Shown here piece after piece: positions 2 through 1,718 of a DNA stretch of 10,981 bases (positions are counted from its first letter, which is position 1; the number at the start of each line of letters is the position of its first letter). The notes below the pieces were generated by a model. That model made no database searches. It saw nothing but the letters and a program-made list of their open reading frames with translations, and was not told where the DNA came from. Location of the stretch: positions 1 to 10,981 of the forward strand of contig JALUWC010000222.1 in the NCBI GenBank assembly GCA_027019885.1, given 5' to 3'. Source of the DNA: Geoglobus sp. (GTDB lineage: Archaea > Halobacteriota > Archaeoglobi > Archaeoglobales > Archaeoglobaceae). The translations under genes were made by a program, and so were the position numbers.

Positions 2-1420
2 AGGCAGGGAATGAAGAATTTTTCCGAAAAGAAGAGTGGAGACATGACGACAGTCATAAACAGCAGGTTTGCGAGGGTGGAATATGCTGTTCCTGCGAGA
101 GCAATGGTTGAGGGCGAGTTCTCAGATGTTGTGATAATAGATGAGGCCGCAGGCATAGATGTTCCTGTGCTGTTCAGGATCGTTGAGAATGTCAGGTATG
201 CCATCTTCTCCACAACCGTGCATGGATATGAAGGAACAGGAAGGGGGTTTGCCATAAGGTTTCTCAGGAGAATGGAGGAGGATGAGAATACAGAGGTCGA
301 CAGGATAGAGCTGAGAGAACCGATAAGGTATGGTCTTGGCGATCCGATAGAGGAGTGGCTCTACGATGTTTTGCTGCTTAATGCACAGCCAGCAGAAATT
401 GATGAAGAGGATATTGAGAGTGTGGAGAGGGGTGAGCTCGAATTTGAGGAACTTGACAAAGACATGCTGATTGAAAATGATGAGCTGCTGAGAGAGTTTT
501 TTGGAATTTATGTTCTTGCCCATTACAGAAACCGGCCTTCCGATCTGGTGATTCTGCTTGACATGCCCAACCACATACCTCTGAGAGTGAAGGTGAATGG
601 AAAAACAGTATGTGCACTGCATGTGGCAATCGAGGGAGGAATGGATGATGTTACGATAAAGAAGCTGGCAGAGGGCTACAAGCCGAAGGGCCAGATAATT
701 CCCGATCTGATTCTCAAGCACTACTGGGACTATGAGTTCCCCAAGCTCAAAGGTGTGAGAATCGTCAGGATTGCAACCCATCCATCCCTCATGGACATGG
801 GGATCGGGAGCTTTGCCCTGAAAATGCTGGTGAAGTGGGTTGCTGAAAGAGACATGGACTGGGCTGGAAGTGGATTTGGCGTCTCTCCAGAGCTTCTGAG
901 GTTCTGGACTAAAAATGGGTTTGTTCCTGTCCATATCACCCCTCAGAGGAATGAGGTCTCGGGGGAGTACACGGTTATTGTGCTTAAAGCCCTGAAGATG
1001 CACATTGAATCCAGGGTGGAGATGATAAACTCGGAGTTTGTGAGAAGGGTTATTGAGTACCTTGGAGATGAGCTGAGGGACATAGAGATTGAAACGGCAA
1101 TGAGACTTCTTGCTTCGTTGAAGAGGGATATCAACGTTCCTCAGCCAGAGTACACGAGAGTCGAGAGAAGGAGGATGATGAAGTACTTTCAGGGGCACAG
1201 CCTTTTTGAGTATGTATCAGACATAGCAAGGCCTCTTGTCAGATACCACTACTCAAAAACCGGCAGAGCAGATCTGGACGAGAAGGAGGAAAGAGTTCTC
1301 GTTGCAAAGTGTTTGATGATGAAAGCCTGGAAAGAGGTGGATGATGGGAGAGCATACAGAAGGATGCTGAAGGCTTTGAAAAAGGTATGGGAGTGGTATC
1401 ATGGAGCAGAAGAGAATTAA
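2..1420 (+). CDS. tmcA: tRNA(Met)/RNA cytidine acetyltransferase TmcA, 5'-truncated by the window
   Basis: The product acetylates N4 of cytidine in RNA (classically wobble C34 of elongator tRNA-Met; in hyperthermophilic archaea also many rRNA and tRNA sites) using acetyl-CoA and ATP. Only the C-terminal two thirds is visible: the frame is open from base 2, and the ATG at 11 lies just before helicase core motifs, so it is not the real start. Numbering from that Met, a Walker-B-like IDEAA is at 43-47, the family-typical TTVHGYEGTGRGF at 68-80, and the GNAT acetyltransferase core follows with RIATHP (253-258) and GIGSFAL (264-270). ELLRFWTKNGFVPVH (294-308) and QRNEVSGEY (312-320) are also characteristic of TmcA/NAT10. 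The rest is a basic helical tail, probably RNA-binding. The acetyl-CoA loop reads M-D-M-G-I-G where many GNATs have Q-x-x-G-x-G. It overlaps the next gene by 20 nt. The identification is firm; the N-terminal domains lie outside the window. Confidence 0.95.
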   Translation, partial: RQGMKNFSEKKSGDMTTVINSRFARVEYAVPARAMVEGEFSDVVIIDEAAGIDVPVLFRIVENVRYAIFSTTVHGYEGTGRGFAIRFLRRMEEDENTEVDRIELREPIRYGLGDPIEEWLYDVLLLNAQPAEIDEEDIESVERGELEFEELDKDMLIENDELLREFFGIYVLAHYRNRPSDLVILLDMPNHIPLRVKVNGKTVCALHVAIEGGMDDVTIKKLAEGYKPKGQIIPDLILKHYWDYEFPKLKGVRIVRIATHPSLMDMGIGSFALKMLVKWVAERDMDWAGSGFGVSPELLRFWTKNGFVPVHITPQRNEVSGEYTVIVLKALKMHIESRVEMINSEFVRRVIEYLGDELRDIEIETAMRLLASLKRDINVPQPEYTRVERRRMMKYFQGHSLFEYVSDIARPLVRYHYSKTGRADLDEKEERVLVAKCLMMKAWKEVDDGRAYRRMLKALKKVWEWYHGAEEN

Positions 1421-1718
1421 TTTCGATTCTGAATACATCAGCGCTATAAAAAATGGAAAGAAGGTGACAACCATAAGAAAGGGGATAAAGAGGTATCCTG
1501 TTGGCAGAATAGTCGATCTCACGGCTGACAGCAAGCCATTTGCAAGGGCAAGGGTGGACAAGGTTGTTGTTAAAAGAGTCAGGGAGCTGACAGATCACGA
1601 TGCAGTTCTGGATGGATTTGAGAGCAGGGAAGAGCTGATTGATGCTCTCAGGAGGATATACGGGGGTGTAAGGGAAGAGGAGTTCGTCACTGTTGTTCAT
1701 TTTACCGTTATCGAGTGA
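1401..1718 (+). CDS. Small ASCH-domain protein, putative N4-acetylcytidine amidohydrolase (YqfB-like)
   Basis: This 105-residue protein is a single ASCH domain (PUA-like beta barrel) with almost nothing extra. The ASCH signature G-x-K-x-x-T-x-R is exact: G19, K21, T24, R26. From memory, E. coli YqfB (103 aa) also has its catalytic Lys at 21 and Thr at 24, plus an acidic residue, Glu74, and hydrolyses N4-acetylcytidine to cytidine and acetate. Here the acidic partner is probably D71 in the D-G-F corner, or E74. The ATG lies inside the 3' end of tmcA (20-nt overlap) and has a Shine-Dalgarno-like GGAG at 1390-1393, seven bases upstream, so it is probably made from the tmcA transcript by coupled translation. 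Seen: the motif and the overlap. Known: ASCH proteins bind RNA or modified nucleosides. Inferred: ac4C hydrolysis, suggested by both the motif and the neighbour. A plain RNA-binding regulator remains possible. Confidence 0.85.
   Translation: MEQKRINFDSEYISAIKNGKKVTTIRKGIKRYPVGRIVDLTADSKPFARARVDKVVVKRVRELTDHDAVLDGFESREELIDALRRIYGGVREEEFVTVVHFTVIE

Follow-up and report, generated by a model that had tools for sequence, protein, structure and literature searches.

The stretch of DNA analysed here (the window, 10,981 nucleotides (nt) from the archaeon Geoglobus sp., family Archaeoglobaceae) opens with the 3′ part of tmcA, the gene of the RNA cytidine acetyltransferase that writes N4-acetylcytidine (ac4C), and continues with a small overlapping gene for an ASCH protein, a putative hydrolase of the same modified nucleoside. 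The junction contains the following features:

2..1420, + strand: tmcA, RNA cytidine acetyltransferase (ac4C writer), with PF05127 and PF13718; its 5′ part is lost at the contig start.
1389..1397, + strand: purine-rich gggagtggt ahead of the ASCH start, inside tmcA; a possible ribosome-binding site.
1401..1718, + strand: ASCH protein of 105 amino acids with an ATG start, a YqfB-like putative N4-acetylcytidine amidohydrolase (PF04266; structure model).
1401..1420, + strand: 20-nt overlap between the tmcA 3′ end and the ASCH start, a length shared by 12 of the 38 junctions examined.
1461..1463, + strand: Lys21 codon, aligned to YqfB K21.
1470..1472, + strand: Thr24 codon, aligned to YqfB T24.
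1611..1613, + strand: Asp71 codon, aligned to YqfB E74.

The contig start truncates the window TmcA to 472 visible codons; the open frames of its orthologues mostly have 765-881. GNAT_acetyltr_2 (PF13718, E 2.6e-41) and NAT10_TcmA_helicase (PF05127, E 4.9e-36) are both above their Pfam cut-offs, and by these helicase and GNAT domains the predicted product of the upstream gene is a member of the TmcA family. A first-pass annotation of the window had described a minimal ASCH protein whose gene overlaps the 3′ end of tmcA by 20 nt, and this description holds: the ASCH open reading frame occupies 1401-1718, the TmcA frame ends at 1420, and the product scores 67.1 bits with Pfam ASCH PF04266 (cut-off 21.2, E 2.5e-18). 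The overlap suggests that the two genes are co-transcribed. The gggagtggt stretch, which also codes for TmcA, is kept in 7 Geoglobus junction rows. No Rfam family matched the window at gathering thresholds.

The conservation of the gene pair was followed in the Archaeoglobaceae, in a sample of their phylum, in the order of genome G154 and in the phylum of Baldrarchaeum, many of the genomes being incomplete. The ASCH protein is present in 52 of the 55 Archaeoglobaceae genomes, TmcA in 53 and both in 51. In 34 of these 51 the genes are co-oriented, with under 100 nt between their aligned ends, in 16 they are on different contigs, and in only one, G016, are they separated by a gap, of 1,557 nt. 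Genes for a DarT-like protein and a macrodomain protein occupy this gap (L056:3360-4795). The window, matched most closely among named records by Geoglobus, belongs to a genome broken into 574 contigs; the single-contig relatives G025, G026 and G027 all have the pair as well, which rules out an artefact of the window's assembly. As a control, none of the 34 secondary ASCH matches in TmcA-bearing Archaeoglobaceae is near tmcA, the nearest of the 8 on the same contig being 38 kb away. Overlap is found at 30 of the 38 junctions surveyed (12 by exactly 20 nt), counts that depend on an automatic choice of starts, some of them doubtful, and that include the interrupted G016. Purifying selection is indicated by ratios of nonsynonymous to synonymous substitution rates (dN/dS) of 0.04-0.09 in four of six Geoglobus comparisons, in which dS is high (1.9-2.6); dS is saturated in the other two. 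This selection, together with the recurrence of the pair in many genomes, argues that the pairing is not due to chance.

The short ASCH gene also occurs apart from tmcA in G051 (L153:2663-3984) and G053 (L155:3840-5161), where it has a 4-nt overlap with the end of the preceding gene, encapsulin-like at L153 (Linocin_M18 plus a rubrerythrin part) and likened to it by eye at L155. In G017 (L164:3902-6450) the end of an apparent methionyl-tRNA synthetase gene runs into the long ASCH gene, as judged by eye. A search of a phage collection gave no match, and that of a plasmid collection two weak bacterial matches only.

Linkage and co-occurrence extend beyond the family. Among the 294 genomes of the phylum sample, 56 have the ASCH type (E 1e-6), 107 have TmcA and 54 have both (Fisher p 2.5e-26, not corrected for kinship). 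When the Archaeoglobaceae are left out and the total is set to 240, six of the seven ASCH genomes have TmcA (p 8e-4), and in all six (G180, G228, G237, G154, G178 and G166, of four families) tmcA is directly upstream of the ASCH gene; the seventh, G113, is without TmcA, and its weak match falls in a different ASCH group of the tree described below. TmcA without the ASCH type occurs in 53 genomes of the sample, 50 of them in seven families that are probably haloarchaeal, judging in part from acidic proteins at two loci. In the order of G154, TmcA is found in 4 of 53 genomes and the ASCH protein in the same 4 (chance 3.4e-6), the genes being adjacent in three and on different contigs in G418. 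The phylum of Baldrarchaeum, which we take to be the Asgard archaea, gave ASCH matches in 18 of 119 genomes (E 1e-4) and TmcA in 16, with TmcA present in 10 of the 11 genomes with the strongest ASCH matches (p 8e-10) and in 12 of the 18 over all matches (p 3e-9). Three of these 10 genomes, Baldrarchaeum G298, G313 and G321, have an ASCH gene directly after tmcA, and in Baldrarchaeum the overlap is also 20 nt; in the other seven with both, the strong ASCH matches are on other contigs of broken assemblies, and most Asgard ASCH matches do not adjoin tmcA. The pair, noticed at first at this one locus, is conserved well past one species, the two genes being neighbours on one strand in multiple lineages. 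In several Asgard genomes, the long ASCH gene lies near a gene for S-adenosylmethionine (SAM) hydroxide adenosyltransferase (L149:1620-3066, by Pfam; L143, L144, L147 and L148 by eye).

RefSeq, NCBIfam (NF003443) and PDB (9kyf, 9kyg, 9kyh) name Escherichia coli YqfB as an N(4)-acetylcytidine amidohydrolase, with K21, T24 and E74 presumably as its catalytic residues. The structure model of the window ASCH protein (predicted local distance difference test score, pLDDT, 95.3) has the YqfB fold and is closer to YqfB than to other solved ASCH proteins; its best match is YqfB with ac4C, the nearest solved structure found, and PUA domains of RNA-modifying enzymes appear among the lower matches. Lys21 and Thr24, assigned by the first-pass annotation to the catalytic positions of YqfB, do align with K21 and T24, and of the two acidic residues that it offered as third partner Asp71 stands, being aligned with YqfB E74 and invariant across the 19 sequences of alignment A1. 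Glu74 of the window protein was rejected as a catalytic residue, as it varies in the same alignment and has no counterpart in YqfB. Lysine, threonine, arginine and an acidic residue are retained in all 18 TmcA-linked ASCH proteins compared.

Nevertheless, the two proteins differ: identity is 20-23%, the third residue is Glu in YqfB and Asp in the window protein, YqfB is acidic whereas the window protein is basic, and the yqfB and tmcA genes of E. coli are about 447 kb apart whereas the two window genes overlap. The archaeal ASCH fold is shared with the Pyrococcus proteins PH0355 (2z0t) and PF0470 (1xne). Archaeoglobaceae and Asgard archaea also have a long ASCH paralogue (about 180-200 residues), which has the triad in common with the window protein but carries an additional C-terminal part; a relative adjoins tmcA in two Asgard genomes, whereas for the secondary matches of the Archaeoglobaceae the figure is the 0 of 34 given above.

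A tree of 55 ASCH domains (103 columns, about 100 residues, with an open backbone) distributes the TmcA-linked rows over five separately supported groups: (i) the short type of the Archaeoglobi together with G180 and G166; (ii) two genomes of the same order; (iii) G154 with G178; (iv) the long Asgard type, and (v) a clade of the 192-residue Baldrarchaeum protein and two unlinked relatives. When the 32 ungrouped rows are omitted, the TmcA label needs two changes on the tree, and a single ancient tmcA-ASCH linkage with later changes may underlie the pattern.

Thermophilic archaea reportedly acetylate many RNA cytidines and, to our knowledge, how ac4C is handled or reversed after RNA turnover in them is an open question; nor do we know of a clear natural role for E. 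coli YqfB or of an ASCH partner described for TmcA. Taking into account the gene, its overlap and conserved linkage with tmcA, the co-occurrence with TmcA, the YqfB-like model fold and the aligned Lys-Thr-Asp triad, all of them observed here, we propose a model of a translationally coupled pair, to which we give a probability of roughly 0.57. In the model, TmcA would acetylate RNA cytidines and the ASCH protein, as a YqfB-like amidohydrolase, would strip the acetyl group from ac4C, most likely from the free nucleoside or nucleotide released by breakdown of acetylated RNA. In this way ac4C would be turned back into cytidine and would not enter the nucleotide pool, and the gene overlap would couple translation of the ASCH protein to that of tmcA. 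The hydrolytic activity, the form of the substrate and the coupled translation are what we infer. Free ac4C is favoured as the substrate because YqfB reportedly acts on free ac4C and related compounds, and because the Asgard genome G306 (L150:2933-5379) carries a tandem pair of ASCH genes, of which the first encodes the YqfB-like string QENM, immediately before two RNase_PH genes that probably encode the exosome pair Rrp41 and Rrp42. Several results leave a YqfB-like function less certain. The Lys/Thr/acidic triad is common to most ASCH proteins compared and is not specific to YqfB; with NF003443, the YqfB equivalog model, the window protein reaches 17.9 bits (residues 2-103) against a cut-off of 93, and the tree, with its open backbone, could not place YqfB and does not join the window protein to it. 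A PDB search with the single ASCH sequence gave chance matches only, and the profile search placed YqfB first without significance (E 0.11). The earlier proposal of an ac4C writer paired with a hydrolase is backed in its linkage, fold and triad; the equivalog score and the generality of the triad leave the hydrolase half less secure.

It is less probable that RNA itself is the substrate and that the two proteins form a true write/erase pair, with the ASCH protein taking ac4C off RNA and limiting or editing acetylation by TmcA. Linkage and co-occurrence would suit such a pair as well, PUA domains are among the lower structural matches of the ASCH protein, and the 18 TmcA-linked proteins are basic (isoelectric point, pI, 8.0-10.4, versus 4.6-5.1 for four YqfB proteins), as befits RNA binding. 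However, ASCH proteins of these archaea that are not linked to tmcA are often equally basic, for which reason charge was rejected as a decisive sign of an RNA substrate; both charge and the PUA-like fold are weak arguments for RNA, and YqfB reportedly acts on free compounds. A broader form of this reading, in which several ASCH subtypes were recruited across lineages to deacetylate RNA and ac4C is a reversible archaeal mark, we consider slightly more doubtful still. THUMP proteins present RNA to the eukaryotic acetyltransferase, and a non-catalytic ASCH partner could do likewise for TmcA; the PUA-related fold, the basic charge, the gene overlap and the several subtypes filling the tmcA-adjacent position would agree with this, but retention of the four residues in 18 of 18 linked proteins and the many genomes with TmcA but without this ASCH protein make it improbable. 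Least likely is that the protein hydrolyses or binds some other modified nucleoside or nucleic acid and that its pairing with tmcA is historical: triad and fold are general among ASCH proteins, and most Asgard ASCH matches and the secondary Archaeoglobaceae ASCH genes do not adjoin tmcA, but different subtypes are linked to tmcA, and in the order of G154 TmcA and the ASCH protein occur in exactly the same genomes.

The candidate hydrolase gene, which overlaps tmcA and accompanies it through gains and losses, offers a concrete lead that can be tested in a family with cultured members. That the two genes overlap or adjoin in many members of a thermophilic family suggests that a single coupled pair both writes and clears the mark, and, if this were true, E. 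coli YqfB would be tied to a writer pathway.

Contig C490 (G000:C490:1-1200, L166) holds a tmcA part absent from the window and has mismatches to the window start, which may reflect a second strain, i.e. a strain mixture in the assembly. Downstream, the approximately 900 nt after the ASCH gene (1719-2640) hold no convincing gene. Those parts that match complete Geoglobus genomes sit there about 270-505 kb from tmcA, and the window seems to join the tmcA-ASCH pair to a different neighbourhood, by rearrangement or by assembly.
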